The notes beneath the pieces were generated by a model, which was given only the letters and a program-made list of their open reading frames with translations, did not search any database and was not told the DNA's origin. From Flavobacteriales bacterium (GTDB lineage Bacteria > Bacteroidota > Bacteroidia > JANQJC01): DNA of 64,000 bases. Location: positions 62,001 to 126,000 of the forward strand of contig JANQJC010000027.1 of the NCBI GenBank assembly GCA_028281825.1. The letters run 5' to 3'. Shown here piece after piece: positions 5,321 through 55,945 of the stretch (positions within the stretch are counted from its first letter, which is position 1; every line of letters begins with the position of its first letter). A program made the translations under genes and the position numbers.

Positions 5321-5338
5321 ATACCCTGTTTAGGGTAT
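5321..5338. terminator. stem-loop after the small lipoprotein gene
   Basis: Perfect inverted repeat ATACCCT-GTTT-AGGGTAT directly after the stop codon. The following T-run is weak, so it is a possible terminator or mRNA-end stabiliser. Confidence 0.4.
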
Positions 5339-43163: not shown

Positions 43164-44171
43164 TTAGTTTACTAGAATAATCCTTTGATTGTACACTTCT
43201 GTTGCAGAATGTATCTTAAGTAGGTAGGTTCCTGGAACCAGGGAAGAAATCTTTATAGGATTCACACCACTAATCAAGTTATTGTTCGTTTCAAAAACTA
43301 GCTTGCCCTCCATGCTATAAATGGAAACAGTTGCATCTTCATTTTGCTTCCAGGTAAGGTTAATATTACCTTCATCCGCAACAGGATTGGGATAAACGGA
43401 AATACCTGAAGTTTCTTCAGTATGAAGACCTGTGACTAGTGAAAGCGGATTTTTGTCATACCATATAAGTTCAGTTGTTGCAAAACCGTCAAAATTCTCT
43501 TCCATCAACAGCAACCAAAACCTATAGTCGGCAGACACCCATGCCCATTGTTCTTTCGTCTGGGTATTAGAGGGAAAACCGCTTACATAATTGGTTTGCT
43601 CTCTGAAAAAGTGATAACGCACCACATTGTTGTATGTGCCTGTCGGAAGTATCAGGGTCCCATATCCATCGGCTTCAAAATCAATATCTCCATCAAAATC
43701 TAAACCACCAAACCCTGGAACGTAATTAGTACCATCAAAAACATCCAGAAAATTATCATTGTAAGTATATGGGAACTGGACTATCTGCTCAAAATCATCA
43801 AAAACTATCATAGCAGTATCTGTTGGCGGAACTGGTGTTACATATCCAACAGCTTCAAGAGCGTTTGGACTCACTTTATAATAACTATAGCTGCCATCCC
43901 AGCTAATACCACATAAGTTAGCATCTGGAAACGAGTCGGCTTTTGGTGTGGTGCCAGGATCCACATATATGAATGATTGTTCCTCGCTCTCAGTCAATCC
44001 ACTAAAGTCCCAGGTTTGATTGACTCCTGAGCTTCCCTCGTTTAAGGGGTCTGAACAAATAGCAATCGTCACATTGTCGCCGATTAAAGGAATATTGGAT
44101 TGAGTAATTGTGGGTTGAGAAAACCCCCATGAGGCAACACAAATTAGTAAGAATGTAAGAGTCGGTTTCAT
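43164..44171 (-). CDS. secreted protein with T9SS type A sorting domain
   Basis: A 335-residue exported protein: signal peptide (cleavage near GFSQ, residue ~19), a beta-rich, aromatic and Asp-rich body (about 20-245), and a C-terminal sorting domain starting SGISVYPNPVADEGNI and ending YNQRIILVN. Predicted to be exported by T9SS. The body has no motif that I recognise. It is followed 14 nt later by a small exported protein gene. It has no TACCC/GGGTA site, unlike the lipoprotein gene next upstream. Confidence 0.83.
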   Translation of the reverse strand: MKPTLTFLLICVASWGFSQPTITQSNIPLIGDNVTIAICSDPLNEGSSGVNQTWDFSGLTESEEQSFIYVDPGTTPKADSFPDANLCGISWDGSYSYYKVSPNALEAVGYVTPVPPTDTAMIVFDDFEQIVQFPYTYNDNFLDVFDGTNYVPGFGGLDFDGDIDFEADGYGTLILPTGTYNNVVRYHFFREQTNYVSGFPSNTQTKEQWAWVSADYRFWLLLMEENFDGFATTELIWYDKNPLSLVTGLHTEETSGISVYPNPVADEGNINLTWKQNEDATVSIYSMEGKLVFETNNNLISGVNPIKISSLVPGTYLLKIHSATEVYNQRIILVN

Positions 44172-44249: not shown

Positions 44250-44825
44250 TTAGTTATCTTTAATGTTTATACCGCTAAAGGAGCCTGTAACGGTTATTTC
44301 CTTAGGTGGATTAGACTCATCAGCACAGCTCATAGTGAAGGTGCCGTCAATAAAGTAATCATCGGCTCCACCAAGTGAACTTCCTACGGATTGATATAAT
44401 TCAGCTTTTGTAATAGTAACACTGCCAGAGGCTGATAAATAACCTACCCCTGCATCCTGGTCGGTATAGCTACCAAATGATGATTGGGTTTGGTTCATCT
44501 GGAAAGTTCCCGTAGTGACTGAATTTGCAGTAACACCAAGGACGATTGACCACTTTTCAGAACCACCAAGAACGTTGATCAAAAGTAAGTTAAGGCTATT
44601 GTTTTGAGAACCGTTAATTGCCTTTCCATCTGCTGAGGTTACGTTTTTGGGCAAGGTAAACTCAACATGTCTTGTAACATCGCCACTTATGTCGGCTGAA
44701 AAAACAGCGTCAGGCAATTCACTTTGAGTTGTATCGTTATCGTCATCATCATCTTTTTTGCAGGCTGTGATACTTACCATTGATACTGATAAAAGCAGAA
44801 GTAATAAATGTTTAAATGATTTCAT
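44250..44825 (-). CDS. lipoprotein with acidic tether
   Basis: A 191-residue lipoprotein. The start at 44825 gives a clean signal (MKSFKHLLLLLLSVSM) and lipobox ending ITAC; the frame open further upstream has no export signal. After the lipidated Cys comes KKDDDDDND, the acidic type of surface-export signal described for Bacteroidota lipoproteins, so it may face outward. The remainder is beta-rich (DISGDVTRHVEFTLP, SGTFTMSCAD), resembling small secreted beta-sandwich lipoproteins. Its promoter carries the inverted repeat shared with two other genes, suggesting control by the neighbouring NarL-type regulator. Confidence 0.78.
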   Translation of the reverse strand: MKSFKHLLLLLLSVSMVSITACKKDDDDDNDTTQSELPDAVFSADISGDVTRHVEFTLPKNVTSADGKAINGSQNNSLNLLLINVLGGSEKWSIVLGVTANSVTTGTFQMNQTQSSFGSYTDQDAGVGYLSASGSVTITKAELYQSVGSSLGGADDYFIDGTFTMSCADESNPPKEITVTGSFSGINIKDN

Positions 44826-44861: not shown

Positions 44862-44911
44862 CAAAAGTAGAGGGGTAAAAAGCACAGCACAATTACCCAT
44901 ATGGGGTAATT
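44862..44911 (-). promoter_or_regulatory. -7 box plus TACCC-N5-GGGTA operator for the lipoprotein gene
   Basis: -7 box TACTTTTG at 44862-44869 and a perfect 8-bp-arm palindrome AATTACCC-ATATG-GGGTAATT at 44891-44911, whose centre is 32 nt upstream of the -7 box. Two other genes in this region show the same layout. Confidence 0.65.
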
Positions 44912-44927
44912 TATGAGGAAAGGTTAT

Positions 44928-45563
44928 TTAAACCAGTTTATCCTTTAAAGCCTTGGTAACAGCTTCGCCTCGTGAATTAACATGCAGTTTGCGATATATA
45001 TTCTTAATGTGCGCACGTACAGTGTGACCACTGATATACAGAGAGTCTGCAATAGTTGAATAGTTTTGCCCCTGACATAGTTTCTCCAATATTTCCGTTT
45101 CCCTTTCTGATAATGGAGACTGGGAACTGGAATGGAAAGAGTCAGTTATTTTTCGTGCTATACTGGGACTCATAGGTGCGCCACCTTCATGCACTTCCTT
45201 GATGCCAGCTAAGAGACGTGTTGGTACTGTATCTTTTAGTAGATAGCCTGTGGCACCAACCGCCAATGATTGAAATATAGACTCGTCATCCTCACGAATG
45301 GTAAGCATTATAAAATCAGTTCCGGGAACACTTTCCTTCAGTCGCTTTACTCCTTCAATACCACTAATACCAGGTAGTTCAACATCCATTAATACCACAT
45401 CGGGTAAATGTTTTTTAATAGGCTCAATGGCACTTTCGCAATCTTTAAAAACATGTTTACATGAAAACCCTGGAGACCTATCTATCAGTAATTCCAACAG
45501 GTCGCGTATCTCATTATTGTCTTCCACAATAGCTACTGATATGGTATGCAGGTAGTTATTCAT
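44928..45563 (-). CDS. NarL/FixJ-family response regulator
   Basis: A 211-residue response regulator. The receiver domain has the acidic pair VEDNNE, Asp60 in VLMDVELPG and Lys near 110 (LLKDT). The LuxR-type helix-turn-helix is in residues 145-205 (LSERETEILEKLCQGQ and SGHTVRAHIKNIYRKL). It is 58 nt downstream of the Reg_prop kinase gene and the likely partner of that kinase. A TACCC-N5-GGGTA site lies in its own upstream region, so it may be autoregulated. Confidence 0.92.
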   Translation of the reverse strand: MNNYLHTISVAIVEDNNEIRDLLELLIDRSPGFSCKHVFKDCESAIEPIKKHLPDVVLMDVELPGISGIEGVKRLKESVPGTDFIMLTIREDDESIFQSLAVGATGYLLKDTVPTRLLAGIKEVHEGGAPMSPSIARKITDSFHSSSQSPLSERETEILEKLCQGQNYSTIADSLYISGHTVRAHIKNIYRKLHVNSRGEAVTKALKDKLV

Positions 45564-45594
45564 TTATCCTGGCTCACAAAATATTGATAATGTG

Positions 45595-45641
45595 CAATAA
45601 TATCGGCTTTTACAGTTCTACTCAATTACCCATATGGGGTA
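45595..45641 (-). promoter_or_regulatory. -7-like box plus TACCC-N5-GGGTA operator for the response regulator gene
   Basis: TATTATTG (45595-45602, one mismatch to TAnnTTTG) with TACCCATATGGGGTA at 45627-45641; the centre is 32 nt upstream of the -7 box, as for the lipoprotein gene. The operator overlaps the last codons of the kinase gene. Confidence 0.6.
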
Positions 45642-48600
45642 TATTACATATGAAACTCACAGTAGTACCTTTCCCTTTCTCCGATTGTAAACCAAAAGTA
45701 GCTCCGGCTGTTGCTGCCCTTTCAGCCATAATGCTTCTTCCATACCCTTTTTTGCTGGTTTCTTCGTTTACATCAAAACCTTTCCCATTGTCTTGAAACT
45801 CTACTTTCAATTCACCTTTTTTTAAAGATACCATTAATTTCACTTCTTCCGCTTTAGCGTGCTTGACGCAATTATTCATTGCTTCTTTAAATATCTGTAC
45901 CATGGCCCTGCGGGTATCCATTGGTAATTTTACTTTTTGATATTCTTCTACAAGCCCTTCCACCACAAAATAAGTTCCTGCGTCAGTAAACATTGAATCA
46001 CCAAAATCCTTTAGCCTGATGATTGTATCAAAAAGTGTATCTTTCGCTGGATCCATCGCCCAGATAAAGTCTCTCATACCAGCAGAAAGTTCTTTTGAGT
46101 TTTGTTCTATTTTATTAAGAAAGTCAAGCACCTCTTTTTTACCTCCCGCTTCAACACGGGCTAATTCAGTAAACAAATTTATCTTGGTAATCTTATTACC
46201 CGCTTCGTCATGAAAATCTTGTGAACTCTTTTTTCTAAAGTTCTCCCGCTCCTCAATTTTAGCTCCCTCAATTTTAGCCTGTACCTCCAGTTTATGGGTA
46301 GCTTTTTGAACCTTATACCTTATGTAAGAGTATATAATACTGATAAAGACCAACAAGTATATCAGGCTGGCGTACCAACTCAACCACGGTGGAGATGGTA
46401 TAAAAAGGGTGATGGCAGCGCCTTTCTCATTCCATAAACCGTCGTTATTGCAAGCCTTTACCCTAAAAGTATACTCACCAGCATCCAGGTTAGTGTAAGT
46501 GGCAGAACGTTTAGTGCCCGCATCTACCCAATCTTGATCAAAACCCTCCAATTTGTACAGGTATCGGTTTTTACCCGGGTTAATAAAACTGAGAGCCGCA
46601 AATTCAAAAGTCAATACATCATGGTCATAAGAGAGGTAAAGTTCTTTTGTTTTTTCTATACTTTTATCAAGGCTAAAGCCATGCTTTCCTTTACTGTGTG
46701 CATTGACTGGTTCATTAAACAACAGGAATCTGGTAAAAACCACGGGTGGTTTGTAAGTATTATTACTCAAGCTGTCGGGGTGAAAAAAGTTAAGCCCGTC
46801 TATACCACTAAAAAACAACTCACCACTTTTGGTCTTTAAGAAGCCATTTTGGTTAAATTCATTATGTTGCAGCCCATCCCCGAGCTCATACGTTTTAGCG
46901 ACTTTACCCCGCACAGGATCAAAACATACAACACCTTTATTGGTACTGGCCCACAGGTTACCTTTATTATCTTCCAGTACACCATATATCACCTCGTTAG
47001 GGAAACCACAATCGGCCGTGTAACGAACAAACAGAGAATCTTTCTCTGGGTCAACATTTTGTAACTTCTCAAACATATTGGGTTGAAGCTGCTTAGTTAA
47101 CTTATTCAAACCACTGGCAGTAGCTATCCATAAATTATGATTGTTATCCTCATAGGTACACAATACAATATTATTGCTTAGGCTATTAAGGTTATCTGAG
47201 ACATTTCTGAAATAGATAAATCTCTCATTCACCCGATCAAAAATATTCAGCCCACCAGTTGGTGTCCCCAGCCACATATTGCCAAAGCTATCTTCCAGGA
47301 TATTGTACACAAAAGGATGACTTGGTTTTTTTTCAACCTCACCTTTGTAATACTGTTTTATATCATTAGTTCCTGGAGAATATCTGAGTAACCCAGCCCC
47401 ACCAGTACCCAGCCATATAATGCCTTGATTGTCTTCTAATATGTAATGAACAGATGTTGTACTGATATCTAATCCATTTGGCTGAATCCTCTCGAATATT
47501 AAACCGTTCAATTTACTCTTGTGCTTTGATGATACTCTATGCACACCTCCTTGTCTTGTACCTATCCAAACATTGCCCTCTTTGTCTTCTCTCAACGATA
47601 GAATATAATCTGAACGAAGTGAACTTTTAGCCTCACCTTTCCAGTATATGGCTTTTTCTCCTGTTTCTCTATCAAGTATCTTTAAACCCTCAGGGCTACC
47701 TATCCATAGGCGGCCATTACTATCTTCAAGCATCGCATACAGGCTCCTGTGCATAGACTTTTTTTTGCCCTGTTTGCTACGCATCAAACCAAAATTGGGA
47801 TTTTCCTGATAAAGCATATTCACACCTGTGCGTGTACCTATCCAGATGATATCATCCCTTGAACGGCACAAGGCTGTAATAGTATTATGAGAAATACTAC
47901 CAGGGTCATTAGTATCATGCCCGTGCCTTACCACTTCTCCTGTTTCAGGATTAAAAAAGAGGAGCCCCCTGTTGGTACCTATACAAAAGCGCTTATCCCG
48001 AGGAGGCAATAATTTCAGAAAGTCAGGGTTTCTTTCATCAAATGAGTATTGTAAGACGTGTTTACTCTCTTTTGTCTTGGGATTGACCTTATATAAGCCT
48101 GTTTTAGTAGCAAAATATATTTCGCCCCTATATTCGAGCATGTCATAGATGGCCCCCCAATTCTTACCATCGGAAAATGGTGATTTGCCTAAAAACTCGC
48201 TCTCCAATGTTTGTGTGTTGATATCCACAAATCCAGAATCTGTGTGTGCCCAAATATGTCTTGTGCCTGTGGACACTATACTACCTGTATAGTTACCTGT
48301 CGCCCTGTCGCCATTTATTCGGCTTTGCATAAAGCCTTTGCTCTTGCCTGTAGACTTATTAAATCGACATACTCCATCATTAGTACCCATCCACAAAACA
48401 CCATCATGCTCAATAATCTTGAATATGCGGTCGCTGGATATCGACTCTGGGTCATTCGGGTCATTTCGATATGAGTTGAAGGTTTCTGTAAAAGGGTCAA
48501 AGCGGTTAAGCCCTCCTCCAAATGTGCCTATCCACAAAACACCCTCCTCATCCTGATGAATGGACCATATATAATTATTACTTAAACTATTTGGGTTACC

Positions 48601-48870
48601 TGGTTCGTTCTTATATATTTTAAAACTATACCCATCATATCTACAAAGACCATCTTGGGTGCCAAACCACATAAAGCCCAATTTATCCTGTATAATGCAC
48701 TGAGATGTGCTTTGCACTTGTCCGTTCTCATCAGTCAATGAGTGAAACATTAGTTGTGAAGTCTGTGCTGCAATCTCCCTAGTGGAAAAGATAATCGCAA
48801 GTAGTATCAAAATAATGTATCTACTCCTTACCAAGAGTGAAAAGTTTTGGTTCAAGACCAAAAATGCCAT
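45622..48870 (-). CDS. Reg_prop beta-propeller sensor histidine kinase, NarX/DesK-type
   Basis: A 1082-residue sensor. A signal segment (ending IAAQ) is followed by periplasmic propeller repeats (about 45-750; many WIGT-type blade ends), a Y_Y_Y domain (about 755-825), one TM helix (about 835-855), then a kinase with His887 in QDFHDEAGNK (HisKA_3 type) and a HATPase with N-box NCVKHAKAEEV and G-box DNGKGFDV. This kinase class pairs with NarL-type regulators, one of which is encoded next. Its last codons overlap the operator of the response regulator gene. The ligand is not evident; nearby genes encode surface proteins rather than a polysaccharide locus. Confidence 0.93.
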   Translation of the reverse strand: MAFLVLNQNFSLLVRSRYIILILLAIIFSTREIAAQTSQLMFHSLTDENGQVQSTSQCIIQDKLGFMWFGTQDGLCRYDGYSFKIYKNEPGNPNSLSNNYIWSIHQDEEGVLWIGTFGGGLNRFDPFTETFNSYRNDPNDPESISSDRIFKIIEHDGVLWMGTNDGVCRFNKSTGKSKGFMQSRINGDRATGNYTGSIVSTGTRHIWAHTDSGFVDINTQTLESEFLGKSPFSDGKNWGAIYDMLEYRGEIYFATKTGLYKVNPKTKESKHVLQYSFDERNPDFLKLLPPRDKRFCIGTNRGLLFFNPETGEVVRHGHDTNDPGSISHNTITALCRSRDDIIWIGTRTGVNMLYQENPNFGLMRSKQGKKKSMHRSLYAMLEDSNGRLWIGSPEGLKILDRETGEKAIYWKGEAKSSLRSDYILSLREDKEGNVWIGTRQGGVHRVSSKHKSKLNGLIFERIQPNGLDISTTSVHYILEDNQGIIWLGTGGAGLLRYSPGTNDIKQYYKGEVEKKPSHPFVYNILEDSFGNMWLGTPTGGLNIFDRVNERFIYFRNVSDNLNSLSNNIVLCTYEDNNHNLWIATASGLNKLTKQLQPNMFEKLQNVDPEKDSLFVRYTADCGFPNEVIYGVLEDNKGNLWASTNKGVVCFDPVRGKVAKTYELGDGLQHNEFNQNGFLKTKSGELFFSGIDGLNFFHPDSLSNNTYKPPVVFTRFLLFNEPVNAHSKGKHGFSLDKSIEKTKELYLSYDHDVLTFEFAALSFINPGKNRYLYKLEGFDQDWVDAGTKRSATYTNLDAGEYTFRVKACNNDGLWNEKGAAITLFIPSPPWLSWYASLIYLLVFISIIYSYIRYKVQKATHKLEVQAKIEGAKIEERENFRKKSSQDFHDEAGNKITKINLFTELARVEAGGKKEVLDFLNKIEQNSKELSAGMRDFIWAMDPAKDTLFDTIIRLKDFGDSMFTDAGTYFVVEGLVEEYQKVKLPMDTRRAMVQIFKEAMNNCVKHAKAEEVKLMVSLKKGELKVEFQDNGKGFDVNEETSKKGYGRSIMAERAATAGATFGLQSEKGKGTTVSFICNIPHMGN

Positions 48871-49304
48871 TTTTTAGGTCTCTTTGCAAAGTAATTTGAT
48901 TAAGATGCATGATTTTACCCTTTATAAAGGACTGTTTCTCTGGAAGTGTTACATTCCATATCCCATTACACCCCCACCTATTCAGCAAGGGCATTCCTTA
49001 CTTCGCCCGCCTTTGTTTTCGCAGTTGGAATACGCTCTTTGAGATAAAGCAAACAGACCGCCTGTTGTATACCTACATCATTGACAAAACGGGTACAAAC
49101 ACGACTGACTGATATCCGAACGTGCGTAATGAACACAAATAATAAAAGAAATACTCATCAGAGAGAAAAGCCCCATACAAATACTCGCGTGGGATTACTA
49201 AACCATCTGCTGCTTTAGGGTGACGAAGAAAACCCCAAGATTTTTGAGGGTTCATATGCTTTGGTCAAGCATCACCTGCATTATGCAAAAGGTTTTCCCA
49301 ATCG
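48871..49304. other. 434-bp gap with a short repeat
   Basis: No gene supported. Holds the second copy of the GATATCCGAACGTGCG repeat (49100-49130). Downstream of it is a stretch with ACGAAGAAAACCCC-type sequence and no T-arm, so not a tRNA relic. Confidence 0.5.
49100..49130. repeat. 31-bp repeat with core GATATCCGAACGTGCG, copy 2
   Basis: Matches 42673-42710 (CACGACTGACTGATATCC then GAACGTGCGTAAT). Intergenic, downstream of the delta-60 gene. Confidence 0.65.
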
Positions 49305-50723
49305 CTAGTATTTAACCAGCCTAATTACATTTCCCGCTTCTGTTTGCAAAAAATACATCCCAGTGCTATATCCTACTAAATCAATATTCAAGGAAGAATT
49401 CCATTCCTTCACTACAACTCCATTTAAATCAATAATACGATAGGGCACAGAGGTATTTGAACTTACTACCTGCATTATCCCATTTGAAGGGTTTGGGAAA
49501 ACGGTAAAAGTTTCTTTTCCAAAGCCCTCAATAATACTGGTTGATTGATCATTATGTACTCGCGCGATATGATTTCTCAGGGTCCCGTCATACTGAGTGA
49601 AGTTCCCTCCGATTAGTATCTTCCCATCGCTCTGAATAGCTAAGGCCTCCCCGGTATTATTACAACCAAAGCCAGGGTCAAAGATGGTGTCTAAGGCACC
49701 GTTGGAACTAATACGAGCAATTGAATTTCTTGATATCCCATCATAATTGTAAAAACCACCTAAGATTATCAGGTTTCCACCGGAAAGAATTTCAACCCTG
49801 TGAATAGCATTCAGGTCAGCACCCGAACCAGGGTCAAAGGAAGCGTCAAAGTTGCCATTTGAATTCAATCGGGCAATCTTCCTCCTTGTGTTCCCATCAA
49901 ATGAATCGAAATAACCGGCTGCAATAATCTTTCCGTCATTTTGTACTTTAACAGTACGTATAGATGGAAAAGTGCCATCGCTGCCTGTTCCGGGGTCAAA
50001 TCCAGTATCCAAAGAACCATCTGAATTAATCCGGGCAATCCTGTTCAGCGCTGTACCATCGTATGAGGTGAAATCACCTCCAATAACTATTTTCCCATCT
50101 CCCTGAATGGCCAGGGAGTTAATCGAGGAGTTTGCACCATCCCCTGGTGAAAAGGAATTGTCTATTGTGCCATCTGTATTTATACGTGTTATTGATGGCG
50201 CTAAATTTGAAAGGCTGTAATAGCGTGAGAAGCTACCGCCTATGAGTATTTTCCCGTCTCCCTGAATTGCCATGGTGCGAATTTCCCCATCAGCCCCATC
50301 TCCAGGATCAAATGTATTATCAAGGCTTCCATCAGCATTCAAACGAACAATCCTATCCCTCGGAGTATTATCGAAATTGTGAAATGCTCCTCCAAGAAGT
50401 ATTTTCCCGTCCGTCTGAATAGCAATAGCATATACGTGATATTGCTGTCCTTGAACATAACCCATTACACCTGCTCCCGGGTCAAAAGTGGTATCAAGGC
50501 TGCCATCAGTATTTAGTCTGGCAATACCATTGATAGCTGTGCTGTCATATAATGAAAAAGGGCCGCCTATGAGTATTTTTCCGTCAGGTTGAATGGCTAT
50601 TGCCTCGACAACCGTATTGGTTCCAAATCCGGGGTCAAATGAAAGGTCTAATGTACCAGGATTTTGTGCTTGGGTATTAAACCCAATGATGATTAAAAGA
50701 AGGGGTAAAAATTTAAATTTCAT
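49305..50723 (-). CDS. delta-60 repeat protein with T9SS sorting domain
   Basis: A 472-residue exported protein: signal peptide (cleavage near NTQAQ), then about seven delta-60 repeats (about residues 24-375), each with a LAIQGDGKILIGG-type strand and an IARLNSDGSLDxxFDPG-type loop, forming a beta-propeller-like shape, and a C-terminal type A sorting domain from about 395 (FTVFPNPSNGIMQ, ending RLVKY). Surface-exposed or released by T9SS. Its promoter carries an AACTACCC-N4-GGGTAGTT site, so it is a candidate member of the same regulon as the lipoprotein gene. Encoded next to a TPR-LuxR regulator. Confidence 0.88.
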   Translation of the reverse strand: MKFKFLPLLLIIIGFNTQAQNPGTLDLSFDPGFGTNTVVEAIAIQPDGKILIGGPFSLYDSTAINGIARLNTDGSLDTTFDPGAGVMGYVQGQQYHVYAIAIQTDGKILLGGAFHNFDNTPRDRIVRLNADGSLDNTFDPGDGADGEIRTMAIQGDGKILIGGSFSRYYSLSNLAPSITRINTDGTIDNSFSPGDGANSSINSLAIQGDGKIVIGGDFTSYDGTALNRIARINSDGSLDTGFDPGTGSDGTFPSIRTVKVQNDGKIIAAGYFDSFDGNTRRKIARLNSNGNFDASFDPGSGADLNAIHRVEILSGGNLIILGGFYNYDGISRNSIARISSNGALDTIFDPGFGCNNTGEALAIQSDGKILIGGNFTQYDGTLRNHIARVHNDQSTSIIEGFGKETFTVFPNPSNGIMQVVSSNTSVPYRIIDLNGVVVKEWNSSLNIDLVGYSTGMYFLQTEAGNVIRLVKY

Positions 50724-50755
50724 GCTTACCTTTTTTAATTTAGCAATTACGCTTA

Positions 50756-50803
50756 CAAAGCTGCTATATACCCTTAAAATCAGAACTACCCACTAGGGTA
50801 GTT
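50756..50803 (-). promoter_or_regulatory. -7-like box plus CTACCC-N4-GGGTAG operator for the delta-60 gene
   Basis: CAGCTTTG (50756-50763; first position differs from TAnnTTTG) and a perfect palindrome AACTACCC-ACTA-GGGTAGTT at 50784-50803, centre 30.5 nt upstream of the -7 box. Same site type and position as at 44891 and 45627. Confidence 0.6.
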
Positions 50804-50828: not shown

Positions 50829-52457
50829 TTAACTTCTATTCCAGATGTCTAACACACTGGCCTTGGTAATGGCCTCAGTTCGGTTTTTGACATCCAGTTT
50901 GACATAGATGTTCTTTAAGTGGAATTTCACGGTATTCTCCGAAATAAAGATGGTTTCGGCTACTTCTTTATTCGTTTTACCGCTTGCAATTTCAGTAAGC
51001 ACTTCAATCTCTCTCTCTGATAAAGGGTCAATCAAATACTGGTTAATCTCTTCCTGGGTGATTTTCAGGTTTATCTTTTTCGGAGACGCTGAAATCTGGG
51101 TTTCTACATGAAGTCGCAGCATTTCCATTTCCTTCCTGTATTCTTGAAGGTGCTGCTCAGAAATCATCAGCTTACGCCTCTGTTTTTGGCGATACCGGCC
51201 AAAGAGAAAAAGGCCTGCTGTACCGATAAGGAATACTCCGCCAATGAGTATTAGTATTATGATGGTTTTTCTTCTTGTTTCTGACTTTACCTGTGTCAAT
51301 TCAAGGTCCTTTTGGGCTAGTTTTCTTTTTCTTTTTTCCGCCTCGTATTTTCCCTGCACATCCTGAATGGCTTTCTGATGTTCTATGACATAGACGCTGT
51401 CTCTGAAAACATTGCTCTTTTCCAGGTGTATATATGCTTGTGGGAAATCGTTTAGGGCTTGATAAGCCTGGGCCAGGGCCTTGTGATTTTCATAGAGCAA
51501 TATGTTAGTGATGTTCTTACCAGGAATCTCAATGGCTTTATTTAAATGTTCAATAGCCTTTTGAAAATTATCCTGTTCCAGATAGTATACTCCCAAATTT
51601 TGATGTACATCACTTATATAGTCAGGACTATTGATTTGTTGAGCGTAAGAATATGAAGTGTCCATATGCAGCAAAAACAAGTCTTCATGTCCCTGTTTTT
51701 TATATATGTTTCCCAGGTTAAGATGGTTGATGTAATGCTGCTCTATATCATCAATGGTCAAATTGTACTTTATGCTTTCCCTAATCAGGGAAATAGCTTG
51801 GTCTAATTCCCCCTTGTTTTTTCTGATAACTGCCATATTTGAAAGCAGTCTGGATATTCCCAGGCTATCATGGAGGCTTTTCTTTAATTCCAGACTTCGC
51901 CCGTAATAGTCCAGTGCTTTTTCTGGTTCACCTATGAGGTCCCAAACAAGTCCAATATTCAGCAGTGTGGAGGAAATTGAACGCGCCGAAGACTCAATGC
52001 TTTCTTTCAGCTTTAGCGCGGTATATAGAGCATGGACAGCATCCTTATACCGACCAACGGTTTTTAATTCAAGACCATAGTTATTCATGAAAGATGCGCG
52101 CAGCGTATCATTTGCCCCTGCGAATTCTAAAGCTTGTTGGTATAGTTTTATAGCCTGTTCATGGTCGCCTAGGTCACTTGTTAAGTTTCCCATCAAGTTC
52201 GTGGCAAGAGCCTTTGTCCTTATTTCATCATATTCATCAGCCAGGAGAATACAGTTTTGGAGATGAGCCTTACATAATGAATCCTGATAGGAGTTATAAT
52301 ACAATTTGGCAAGCCTATACTCTGTCTTAGCCGCGGCCTTTGCATTGCCATTTTGCATTTGGGTGTTCAATAACTGTATCAAGCTGTCTTCAACTCCTTG
52401 AGAAAAAGCATTTGAGGAAACTTGCAGTAGTGCAAAAACAATAAAGTACAATCGCAT
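50829..52457 (-). CDS. TPR-repeat transmembrane regulator with LuxR-type HTH
   Basis: A 542-residue one-component regulator. The start at 52457 gives a signal peptide (MRLYFIVFALLQVSSNAFSQ); the frame is open for 22 codons more without an export signal. About eight TPR helical pairs fill residues 30-375 in the periplasm, one TM helix lies near 405-425, and a cytoplasmic LuxR HTH occupies the last ~65 residues (LSEREIEVLTEIASGKTNKE, then SENTVKFHLKNIYVKL). The recognition helix resembles that of the neighbouring response regulator. No receiver domain. It may regulate the delta-60 gene, which is next and shares the TACCC operator. Confidence 0.82.
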   Translation of the reverse strand: MRLYFIVFALLQVSSNAFSQGVEDSLIQLLNTQMQNGNAKAAAKTEYRLAKLYYNSYQDSLCKAHLQNCILLADEYDEIRTKALATNLMGNLTSDLGDHEQAIKLYQQALEFAGANDTLRASFMNNYGLELKTVGRYKDAVHALYTALKLKESIESSARSISSTLLNIGLVWDLIGEPEKALDYYGRSLELKKSLHDSLGISRLLSNMAVIRKNKGELDQAISLIRESIKYNLTIDDIEQHYINHLNLGNIYKKQGHEDLFLLHMDTSYSYAQQINSPDYISDVHQNLGVYYLEQDNFQKAIEHLNKAIEIPGKNITNILLYENHKALAQAYQALNDFPQAYIHLEKSNVFRDSVYVIEHQKAIQDVQGKYEAEKRKRKLAQKDLELTQVKSETRRKTIIILILIGGVFLIGTAGLFLFGRYRQKQRRKLMISEQHLQEYRKEMEMLRLHVETQISASPKKINLKITQEEINQYLIDPLSEREIEVLTEIASGKTNKEVAETIFISENTVKFHLKNIYVKLDVKNRTEAITKASVLDIWNRS

Positions 52458-52648
52458 AACTCCGGACAAATAAAAGCAAAATTGGCTATCTATATTTGGG
52501 CAATATGTTTTGCCAGGGGTCATAGCGTTTATTGGTCAATATATATCCTACCTATTCGCGTAAATAGTTTTTCAAATTTCAGGGTAGAGTTTACCTGATT
52601 TTATAGTGTTGTGAATGCGCCAACCGACTATTCATATTTTTTGATTAG

Positions 52649-55600
52649 TCACATTAGGCGAACTCCCATAATAAGGATGTCATCGACCTGGTCCTCTCCG
52701 CCCATCCAGTCTATCAAATAGCGATCCAGGCAGTCTCTTTGATTTGCACAGGGCAAATTATGTATATCTTCCAATTGTTCTTTCAGACGCTTTGACATAA
52801 TTTTTTTCCCCTTCTTTCCTCCAAACTGGTCAACATAGCCATCCGAAAAGAGATATAGCATATCACCTGAAGAGAAGTCTATCGAGGCAGTCTCGTATTT
52901 CTTTATTGAAGTACTCAACACACCGCCCAGACTAAACTTTGACCCTTTAACATACGATAATCCTTCATCAGATATAAGGATGATGGGTCTTCCGGCCCCT
53001 GCAAAATCCATTTGCCCGGAATTGGTATCAATACTACAAATTGCCATATCAATCCCGTCGGTTACATTTTCACCATCTGCTTTTCCTAAAACATTCACTA
53101 GTCCATCGTCCAAAAGCTCAAGTATATGCGTGGGGTATGACGCCCCCTCCTGTACAATTATCTTATTTAAGAGTTCAATACCTAAAACACTCATGAAAGC
53201 ACCAGGAACGCCATGCCCTGTGCAATCTGCCGCCACGATAATAAATTTACCCTTCCTTTTGTGAAACCAGTAAAAGTCACCACTTACAATATCCCGCGGA
53301 CGTAGGTACACAAAAGCATCCTGAAAAAAATCCTGGAGAATACTTTTATCGGGAAATAGTGCTTTTTGAAGCCTCAGGGCATAGTTTATACTATCGGTAA
53401 TATCTTTATTCTTTCTGGACAAAAGCGAGTTTTTATCCGACAACTCACTAGTCCTTTGAAGTACTTGTGTCTCAAGCTTTTTTGTAAAATCTTTTCTTTC
53501 CTTTTCAATTTTTTTCCTCTCCCTTATATCCCTTACGATACCGGAAACCGAAGTTATCTTTCCATGATCATTGATAATTGGAAAAATTGATAACTCAATA
53601 GGTACACGCCTTTGGTTCTTTCGCAACCCGATTGCCTCAATAGTGACACTTACATTTTCTCGTACTACCTTTCGGGTTGCCTCCCTGGCTCGTTCTAAAT
53701 GTTCCGGCGGTGAAAGTATACCTAGTGGCTCTCCAAGGATTTCTTCAGATGTATAGCCAAAAAGTTCGGCAGCGCTTTTATTCCAACTGAGAATAGCTCC
53801 GTTGAGCCCCACACTGATTATTGCCTCATTTGAATTAGAAACTATCTTGGCGAGTCGCTTTGATTTCTCCTCCGTCATTACCTTGGCAAGCGCTGCTGAT
53901 ATGCCATTGGTGATACGTTCAAATCGTTCAATCATCTTTATGGGAAGCACTCGTGAATGGATTAAGATAATTACCCCAAACGCATCCCTTCTGGAAGAAA
54001 CTGGTATAATGATTGATGATTTAACACCTGAGCCTGTAAGAGACTCAACCAGGTGGGAATGGACGGTGTGATTTTCAGTAAATTCACGACTTAAGTCAAT
54101 AATGTCATCCTTATCCCTGGTAATCTGGGCACGTTTATCACTCATGGCTTTCCAAATTAGCCCACCGGATAAAAGCACAGGTATACGTTCTGGAAAATTG
54201 ATACTTGTTCCGGCCTGTTTGGATATGCCATCATTGAACCCCTTATTCATACATCGTAATTGTTTCTTCTCGTCAAAAAGATATACCCATCCATCCAAAA
54301 TAGGTTCAAGCGCCTGAAAAGTCACTACCACCTCATTGGCAATATAGCTTATGGACTGGTCTGCAAGTGAAAGAGTATTTATTTCCTCAATGGCTTTAAG
54401 TTCCTTATAGGACTGTTCTATCTCATTCTGGGTATTCTTAGTAGCGGTAATGTCTGTACTAATACCTATAAACTTCTCCAGTTTTCCATCAGGTGATTTC
54501 TGAGGGGTTATTGATAGGGTAATCCAATAAGCCAATCCTGCGGAATTGTAATTCAGTATTTCCGTCGTGAAAGGTTCTGCCCGTTGTAAGCTCTGGCGTA
54601 TTGCCATTACTGCTTGAGGGTCAGTCCGGGGGCCTTGCAGGAAATCGCCTGGTTTCTTACCTATAACTTCTACAGACTTGTACCCTGTCAGCTTTTCAAA
54701 ACCTGTATTCACCCATTCAATCATACCCTGCGCATTGGTGATAATCACTGCATTATCTATCTGGCTTGCAACCCGAGATAACTTCACAATTTCCTTTTCG
54801 GCTTCAACCCGTTGTGTTATATCCCTTACGAAGGCCTGAAGAACCTTCTTCCCGTCATGCTCAATTATTTTCGCTACCACCTCCACCGGATAGAGGCTTT
54901 GGTCTTTTCGCCGATGTTTAGAAATAAAACTTAACTTCTCTCTGACTAATGCCTGGGCAACCCTTTGCTCTATTTCAGGGATGTTTTCCTGGGCTATTAA
55001 AATAGAAATTGGTTGTCCCAGGACCTCTCCTTTATCGTATCCCGTGTTTTCATACAAAGTGGGATTTGCATCCAGAATCCGATAGGTGGCAACATCAATG
55101 ATTATTATTTCATCCGTGGCATTCTCATAAAGGTCACGGTATTTTTTCTCTCTTTTCACCAAATCAAGGCGAGCAAGTTTTTGGTTCGTAATGTCAGTAA
55201 TCGTTCCTATATAACCCATCATGTTATGATCCCCATCCTGCTCGACATCTGCCTGTCCCAATACCCAAATAATCTCTCCTGTATTCTTCACAAAACGGTA
55301 TTCGACACTGACACTTGATTTGCTTTTAGATAATAGTTCTTGCCAGGCGTCTAATACAATCTTGCGATCATCCTTGTGTACAGCACTGAACCAGCCGGTT
55401 CCGAGGGCCTCATTTTTAGAAAGCCCCGCCAATTCAGTGTATTTTTTATTAACATAAATACACTGTCCGTTTTTGTCCACTTGAAATATACCAACAGGGG
55501 ACATGGAAGCCAATGCAAAAAACTTTCGCTCACTTTTCTTTGTTGCGAGTAATGCCTCCTCTTTTTCATTTAGCAACTTTCTTCTTGCAATAGCCTGTTG

Positions 55601-55945
55601 TATGGCACTTGGCAAACGTTTCAGCCTGTCCTTGAAAACGTAATCATCAATACCCAATTGCAGCATCTCTGCTGCTATTGTATCACGAAGGGCACTGGTA
55701 ATGAAGATGAAAGGTATATGAGGCTGCCTCTCGTTCAATATCTTAAATGCTTCCTTACCACTGAAAGTCGGCAAGTCGTAATCAGACAATATAATATCAG
55801 GAAGCTGGTCTTTACTTAATTCGGTCGTATAATCAATCTTATTATCGACATGAGCATATTCAAAATCAAGGCCTGATTTTTTTAATACCCTTAAGAGTGT
55901 ATCCACATCACGTGAAGTATCTTCCAGAATGAGTAATCTCAGCAT
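52649..55945 (-). CDS. multidomain REC-PAS-GAF-PP2C (SpoIIE-type) signalling phosphatase
   Basis: A 1098-residue soluble protein. Order: receiver domain (1-120, Asp55 in LSDYDLP), four PAS domains (about 138-255, 262-380, 388-505 and 705-820), one GAF domain (about 520-690), a coiled coil (835-870) and a SpoIIE/PP2C phosphatase (about 880-1095; RPRDIVSGDFYW, DCTGHGVPGAFMS, DGIDMAI, with the metal Asp residues). It should dephosphorylate a target, typically an anti-sigma-factor antagonist, in response to a phosphorylation signal and small-molecule or redox cues. No partner switch genes are nearby. Confidence 0.92.
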   Translation of the reverse strand: MLRLLILEDTSRDVDTLLRVLKKSGLDFEYAHVDNKIDYTTELSKDQLPDIILSDYDLPTFSGKEAFKILNERQPHIPFIFITSALRDTIAAEMLQLGIDDYVFKDRLKRLPSAIQQAIARRKLLNEKEEALLATKKSERKFFALASMSPVGIFQVDKNGQCIYVNKKYTELAGLSKNEALGTGWFSAVHKDDRKIVLDAWQELLSKSKSSVSVEYRFVKNTGEIIWVLGQADVEQDGDHNMMGYIGTITDITNQKLARLDLVKREKKYRDLYENATDEIIIIDVATYRILDANPTLYENTGYDKGEVLGQPISILIAQENIPEIEQRVAQALVREKLSFISKHRRKDQSLYPVEVVAKIIEHDGKKVLQAFVRDITQRVEAEKEIVKLSRVASQIDNAVIITNAQGMIEWVNTGFEKLTGYKSVEVIGKKPGDFLQGPRTDPQAVMAIRQSLQRAEPFTTEILNYNSAGLAYWITLSITPQKSPDGKLEKFIGISTDITATKNTQNEIEQSYKELKAIEEINTLSLADQSISYIANEVVVTFQALEPILDGWVYLFDEKKQLRCMNKGFNDGISKQAGTSINFPERIPVLLSGGLIWKAMSDKRAQITRDKDDIIDLSREFTENHTVHSHLVESLTGSGVKSSIIIPVSSRRDAFGVIILIHSRVLPIKMIERFERITNGISAALAKVMTEEKSKRLAKIVSNSNEAIISVGLNGAILSWNKSAAELFGYTSEEILGEPLGILSPPEHLERAREATRKVVRENVSVTIEAIGLRKNQRRVPIELSIFPIINDHGKITSVSGIVRDIRERKKIEKERKDFTKKLETQVLQRTSELSDKNSLLSRKNKDITDSINYALRLQKALFPDKSILQDFFQDAFVYLRPRDIVSGDFYWFHKRKGKFIIVAADCTGHGVPGAFMSVLGIELLNKIIVQEGASYPTHILELLDDGLVNVLGKADGENVTDGIDMAICSIDTNSGQMDFAGAGRPIILISDEGLSYVKGSKFSLGGVLSTSIKKYETASIDFSSGDMLYLFSDGYVDQFGGKKGKKIMSKRLKEQLEDIHNLPCANQRDCLDRYLIDWMGGEDQVDDILIMGVRLM

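Follow-up and report, generated by a model that had tools for sequence, protein, structure and literature searches.

In Escherichia coli, NarL recognizes heptamers of the form TACYNMT, and its operators are built from inverted half-sites with 7-2-7 spacing. Class II activator promoters carry their operator near -41.5, upstream of a sigma-70 -35/-10 core. Among the Bacteroidota, the hybrid two-component systems of Bacteroides polysaccharide loci, in which one polypeptide holds both the sensor kinase and the DNA-binding regulator, use sensors with Reg_prop, Y_Y_Y and HATPase_c domains for local control of neighbouring surface-protein genes (SusCD), and PorXY-SigP of Porphyromonas gingivalis, which controls the secretion machinery, links two-component signalling to type IX secretion (T9SS). 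Bacteroidota commonly pair NarL-type regulators with Reg_prop kinases, and in the open-access literature searched we found no description of the operator or promoter logic of such pairs. Here we describe a locus of this kind within a 64,000-nucleotide stretch of a Flavobacteriales genome (the window).

The response regulator (RR) of the locus has the Response_reg plus GerE architecture of E. coli NarL and NarP and can be aligned to NarL (1a04), and its proposed operators also consist of inverted half-sites. The half-sites TACCCAT and TACTACT fit the NarL heptamer; TACCCAT forms one arm each of window sites 1 and 2 and TACTACT belongs to a sister subfamily, whereas the second arm of these two sites, TACCCCA, does not match the heptamer. 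The window half-sites abut or lie 1 nt apart, giving operators of 14–15 bp (7-0-7 or 7-1-7) rather than 7-2-7, and the 16-bp spacing is found mainly in the sister subfamilies with TACTACT or TACAACT half-sites. The resemblance to the NarL heptamer noted in the first-pass annotation thus extends to the half-site and not to the spacing, and because their spacing is not 7-2-7 we do not call the window operators NarL sites proper. Further differences from NarL are a Reg_prop kinase in place of NarX/NarQ, a -33/-7 promoter of the Bacteroidota type and a regulon confined to the locus. The operators abut the -33 element much as in class II promoters, but the core is the TTG-N20-TAnnTTTG of Bacteroidota. 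The sensor is of the same kind as in the Bacteroides hybrid systems, and control of surface-protein genes would again be local; the system is nevertheless not a hybrid one, because sensor and RR are separate, the latter being a NarL-type protein in its own right, and its predicted targets are T9SS cargo and a lipoprotein instead of SusCD. Like PorXY-SigP, the system is linked to type IX secretion; unlike PorXY-SigP, it has as its predicted targets individual cargo genes next to it.

A two-component pair flanked by matching inverted repeats

The genes, operators and -7 boxes of the proposed circuit are all on the minus strand. The RR (44928..45563), with recognition helix SGHTVRAHIKNIYRKL, is the proposed binder of three operators. 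It has an N-terminal receiver and a C-terminal helix-turn-helix (HTH) region (Pfam Response_reg, 3.1e-22; GerE, 4.4e-17), NarL, DesR and VraR are among the solved structures nearest to it, and by its domains it is a member of the NarL/FixJ family. Its likely partner is the sensor histidine kinase at 45622..48870 (Pfam Reg_prop, Y_Y_Y and HATPase_c), which has no output HTH in Pfam, the RR being a separate open reading frame (ORF); the kinase adjoins the RR in most of the extended loci compared. On the other side of the RR lies the first putative target, a predicted lipoprotein (44250..44825; signal ...SVSMVSITACKK), followed by a protein with a T9SS tail (43164..44171; 'PTITQSNIPLIGD...QTWDFSGL'; Por_Secre_tail, 8e-14) that is probably encoded in the same transcript. 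The remaining putative target, third in our numbering, is a delta-60 repeat protein at 49305..50723, a DUF5122 beta-propeller (3.7e-82) with a T9SS tail (Por_Secre_tail, 1.2e-8). Upstream of it is a TPR-LuxR gene (50829-52523), whose neighbour (52649-55945) encodes a large response regulator that combines several PAS domains with a SpoIIE phosphatase at the C-terminus.

The three inverted repeats described in the first-pass annotation are all present at the positions it gave, and two of them are the same 15-mer. Operator 1 (TACCCCATATGGGTA on the coding strand; 44894..44908) precedes the lipoprotein gene just past the RR stop codon and sits inside a 21-bp imperfect repeat (44891-44911). Operator 2 (45627..45641) repeats this 15-mer before the RR gene, and the two sites have 19 identical bases in common in all. 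Operator 2 and the kinase ORF overlap at the 3' end of the latter, the kinase stop codon being at 45622-45624. Operator 3 (TACCCTAGTGGGTA; 50787..50800) precedes the delta-60 gene within a 20-bp perfect repeat (50784-50803). Read on the forward strand, sites 1 and 2 are TACCCATATGGGGTA and site 3 is TACCCACTAGGGTA. The pattern TACCC-N0-12-GGGTA has 6 matches in the 64-kb window against 0.30 expected, a number reached in none of 100 shuffles. Across the whole genome (4.02 Mb), TACCC..GGGTA with N3-8 occurs at 33 palindromic places compared with 20 for the reversed control, and the matches other than our three sites and one further intergenic repeat all lie within ORFs or a tRNA. That further repeat, TACCCTGTTTAGGGTA (16 bp, N6), is at 5322-5337 of the window between divergent genes, and no -7 box was noticed at the corresponding distance.

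The end of the kinase gene doubles as the proposed RR operator (45622-45641). The final codons, for ...IPHMGN-stop, contain the operator, so that one sequence has two roles. Operators within the last kinase codons were also seen in 9 of the 24 upstream modules found in the comparison described below, namely in L064 (5909-5922), L042, L045, L056, L058, L158, L163, L165 and L211.

Each repeat is followed at a similar distance by a -7 box. With the boxes read on the coding strand and their first base taken as the end point, the distance from the centre of the repeat is 31.5 nt for TACTTTTG in the lipoprotein promoter (44862..44869), 31.5 nt for TATTATTG in the RR promoter (45595..45602) and 30.0 nt for the -7-like CAGCTTTG in the delta-60 promoter (50756..50763). 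The near-constant spacing that had been claimed is therefore present, but only the box at site 1 is an exact TAnnTTTG, the other two having one mismatch each. CAnnTTTG boxes also occur at the downstream operators of L070, L176, L190 and L191. The lipoprotein and RR promoters have a -33 TTG at 44890-44892 and 45623-45625, respectively, each separated from the -7 box by a 20-nt spacer. The site 3 promoter is the weakest of the three, with a poor -7 box and without a good -33 TTG.

Recurrence of the operator module beside related regulators

Using the RR protein as query for orthologs and close paralogs we collected 128 non-identical loci; these are related, some being near-duplicates, and the counts below are not independent samples. 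The GTDB scan yielded metagenome-assembled genomes of Bacteroidota, Ignavibacteriae and Calditrichota among others, and no relative closer than class level was found in the genome set compared. A dyad scan that assumed no motif, covering all 64 trinucleotide dyads at several spacings in the flanks of the first 30 loci, ranked TAC-N8-10-GTA first (21 flanks against 5.1 expected from dinucleotide shuffles; z 8.2). Over all 128 loci we found 73 repeats of the TAC..GTA form with a length of 14–16 bp. When repeat and box were scored jointly, modules were present upstream of the RR in 24/128 loci (0.3 expected from dinucleotide shuffles) and downstream in 20/128 (0.7 expected), and a conserved operator in the regulator's own promoter is what autoregulation predicts. 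By this strict score 96 of the 128 relatives have no module, so the module marks subfamilies and not the RR family as a whole.

The distance between operator and promoter is fixed. Of 24 TAnnTTTG boxes downstream of repeats, 22 start 29.5–32 nt from the repeat centre, compared with a mean of 0.3 and a maximum of 2 in mononucleotide shuffles. A -33 TTG directly behind the operator and exactly 20 nt before the box is present in 15 of the 44 modules, and several modules have no such TTG. In Flavobacterium, the TAnnTTTG box occupies -12 to -5 (PMC9723704), which places the operator centres at about -41.5 to -44. An operator near this position, next to the upstream core element and at a conserved distance from it, is class II geometry as judged from the sequence, and the class II activator distance originally proposed for three promoters is borne out by the wider set.

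Half of the upstream modules (12/24) leave only 4–6 nt between the G of TAnnTTTG and the RR start codon (L042, L045, L048, L049, L058, L155, L158, L176, L178, L183, L190 and L220), which predicts leaderless RR mRNAs in these loci. This proportion is far above the 5.5% leaderless share reported for Flavobacterium psychrophilum (PMC9723704). The RR of the window is not leaderless.

Gene order is conserved together with the operators. Nine genomes from four families (G085, G305, G001, G237, G052, G326, G084, G382 and that of the window) have their genes arranged as kinase, RR, (lipoprotein) and T9SS protein, and in each an operator adjoins the RR. In G326 the kinase is located beyond the targets. 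Between the RR gene and the gene that follows it there is a second operator; on visual inspection, the product of the following gene mostly begins with a signal peptide. With RRs of the TACCC type, the target that recurs belongs to the same family as the T9SS-tail protein at 43164-44171, and the eight other genomes all have a homolog of it behind the RR with 24–43% identity, that of G382 being cut by the contig end. G085 (L037/L222) repeats the whole order of the window, with an equivalent of the lipoprotein gene; in L037 the counterpart of operator 1 is TACCCATATGGGTA, followed by the lipoprotein gene and then the T9SS gene. In L222 (795-3840) the Reg_prop kinase is broken into short frames, by either decay or an assembly error, and both operators and targets are intact. 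For the delta-60 gene, a locus from Calditrichota (L065) is informative. There, TAACCCATTTGGGTA and a near-consensus box precede the gene of a beta-propeller protein with a T9SS tail, which stands directly after the RR gene and whose product is 28% identical to the delta-60 protein over 249 residues. This arrangement lends modest support, independently of the window, to the delta-60 gene as a predicted target. The comparison of orthologous promoters suggested by the first-pass annotation thus shows the same operators, at the same fixed spacing, beside RR genes in distant genomes.

Operator type goes together with the recognition helix. A TACCC..GGGTA site, one mismatch being allowed, accompanies all 12 RRs with a window-like AHIK helix ([HN]T[VI][KR]AHIK), compared with 5 of 110 other RRs (Fisher, 5e-13). 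The TETVRTHIRNIY subfamily has 16-bp TACTACT sites, the IDTVRHFIK and HDTVRFYIK types have TACATNA sites, the TETVRTHVHKIY type has TACAACT sites, and only degenerate sites are seen in those close homologs whose helix is of the GHTVR[ST]HIK type. Co-variation of half-site and helix beyond receiver-domain distance was not significant (partial Mantel r 0.09, 238/2000), and the helix code, visible as it is, is therefore not yet separable from common descent.

Proposed mechanism and competing explanations

We read these elements as a NarL-type operator system that regulates itself, serves a single locus as its private circuit and drives secreted surface proteins, and assign this reading a probability of about 0.85 from sequence comparison. 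A signal acting on the Reg_prop kinase would lead to phosphorylation of the RR, and a dimer of the RR would bind the 14–15 bp palindrome around -42, immediately ahead of the -33 TTG. The bound RR would then act as a class II activator and recruit RNA polymerase to three promoters nearby: that of its own gene, giving positive feedback, that of the unit encoding the lipoprotein and T9SS-tail protein, and that of the delta-60 gene. Binding of the operators by the RR and control of the RR by kinase phosphorylation are both predictions from the gene context and the comparisons above, and we infer activation in preference to repression from the position of the operator. The core of the original proposal, an autoregulated circuit with class II geometry that drives surface-protein genes, is upheld across the 128 loci.

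The sign of regulation is where an alternative deserves most weight. Response regulators that control their own genes include activators as well as repressors, and many of the promoters have a good -33/-7 pair and could be active unaided, so the operators might be real and the RR a repressor, for example one that represses when unphosphorylated and is relieved by the signal. This appears unlikely in view of the site, which borders the -33 element on its upstream side near -42, the classical position for class II activation, and leaves the -33/-7 spacer and the start site uncovered; the several modules without a -33 TTG would moreover need help. A second regulator may instead be involved, with the TPR-LuxR protein binding site 3 or perhaps all sites in a two-regulator circuit. 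Its helix SENTVKFHLKNIYVKL does resemble that of the RR, as had been noted, its gene adjoins site 3, and the HTH regions of the two proteins are 50% identical over 56 aa. The same operators nonetheless stand beside RR genes in many genomes, and the L065 beta-propeller gene has its operator directly after an RR gene. A search of 99 genomes found no relative of the TPR-LuxR protein at 1e-60. The weak match L231 looks like a sigma factor and not a LuxR regulator. The helix similarity proposed earlier stands, nothing supports the protein as a binder, and we regard its involvement as improbable.

Since all three repeats have a stop codon at or just ahead of them, it was necessary to exclude that they are intrinsic terminators of the upstream TPR-LuxR, kinase and RR genes. 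Site 3 is flagged as terminator-like and folds to -12 kcal/mol, but none of the stems is directly followed by a proper T-run, and their folding does not stand out from that of shuffled sequences (z -1.7, -0.6 and -1.4). Site 2, like the kinase-end operators elsewhere, is inside an ORF, and relatives keep imperfect second arms such as TACTACTTTTTGCGTA that are incapable of forming a strong hairpin. Termination, which also has no place for a fixed distance to a -7 box, is very improbable. That the sites resemble each other by chance, or through a local duplication that has no function, might be argued from the 19 bases common to sites 1 and 2 and from the TACCC dyads that arise by chance inside genes. 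Such an origin is hard to reconcile with the fixed promoter spacing and with the presence of the sites next to orthologous RR genes of other families, where the flanks have diverged; the comparative counts refute it, and we give it almost no credence.

Private circuits and their wider meaning

A genome-wide search for the repeat with its -7 box, as had been suggested, revealed no regulon beyond the locus. Operator-plus-box searches of the organism's own genome, strict and relaxed, gave 9 matches compared with 8 in reversed controls, with essentially site 1 alone above background, and a genome-wide regulon was rejected on these grounds. What is said here of the genome as a whole is based on pattern searches and on individual stretches of it. 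False matches in such scans can come from typical terminators that mimic operator plus box, as with the rejected candidate CACCCAATTGGGTGGCTTTTTTG (G000:C82:9963-10006; L018 near 5367). Two further loci of the same genome with LuxR-type RRs, L225 (G000:C16) and L228 (G000:C82), have TTTAGAATTAGTCTAAA-like sequences in their flanks, which are possibly further self-operators. In L225 the upstream region contains, in addition, two TACCCC-N6-8-GGTA-like repeats.

For the TACTAC sister type, the search returned 17 operator-plus-box matches in 12 genomes, 12 of them directly beside the RR gene searched for. Two matches away from the RR locus, G027:C17:187923-187969 and G065:C9:197490-197536 (both on the minus strand), are possible additional targets. 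By their distribution of sites, TACTAC-type systems look like private circuits in which one sensor and one regulator would serve the regulator's own gene and a neighbour, with occasional extra sites. There is perhaps an even chance that this applies to many Reg_prop-kinase/NarL-regulator pairs of Bacteroidota and neighbouring phyla, each with a helix-matched operator flanking the RR gene and few exceptions elsewhere, so that the pair controls itself and the adjacent secreted protein.

With the operator form, the fixed spacing and a conserved target in hand, targets, binding sites and reporters become predictable from sequence alone, and it can be asked whether individual surface-protein genes are served by sensors dedicated to them. 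If the private-circuit view is true, it would make the helix-to-operator code of hundreds of orphan systems readable. Because the proposed wiring recurs in distant relatives, it offers a control code that can be read and tested across a large bacterial phylum.
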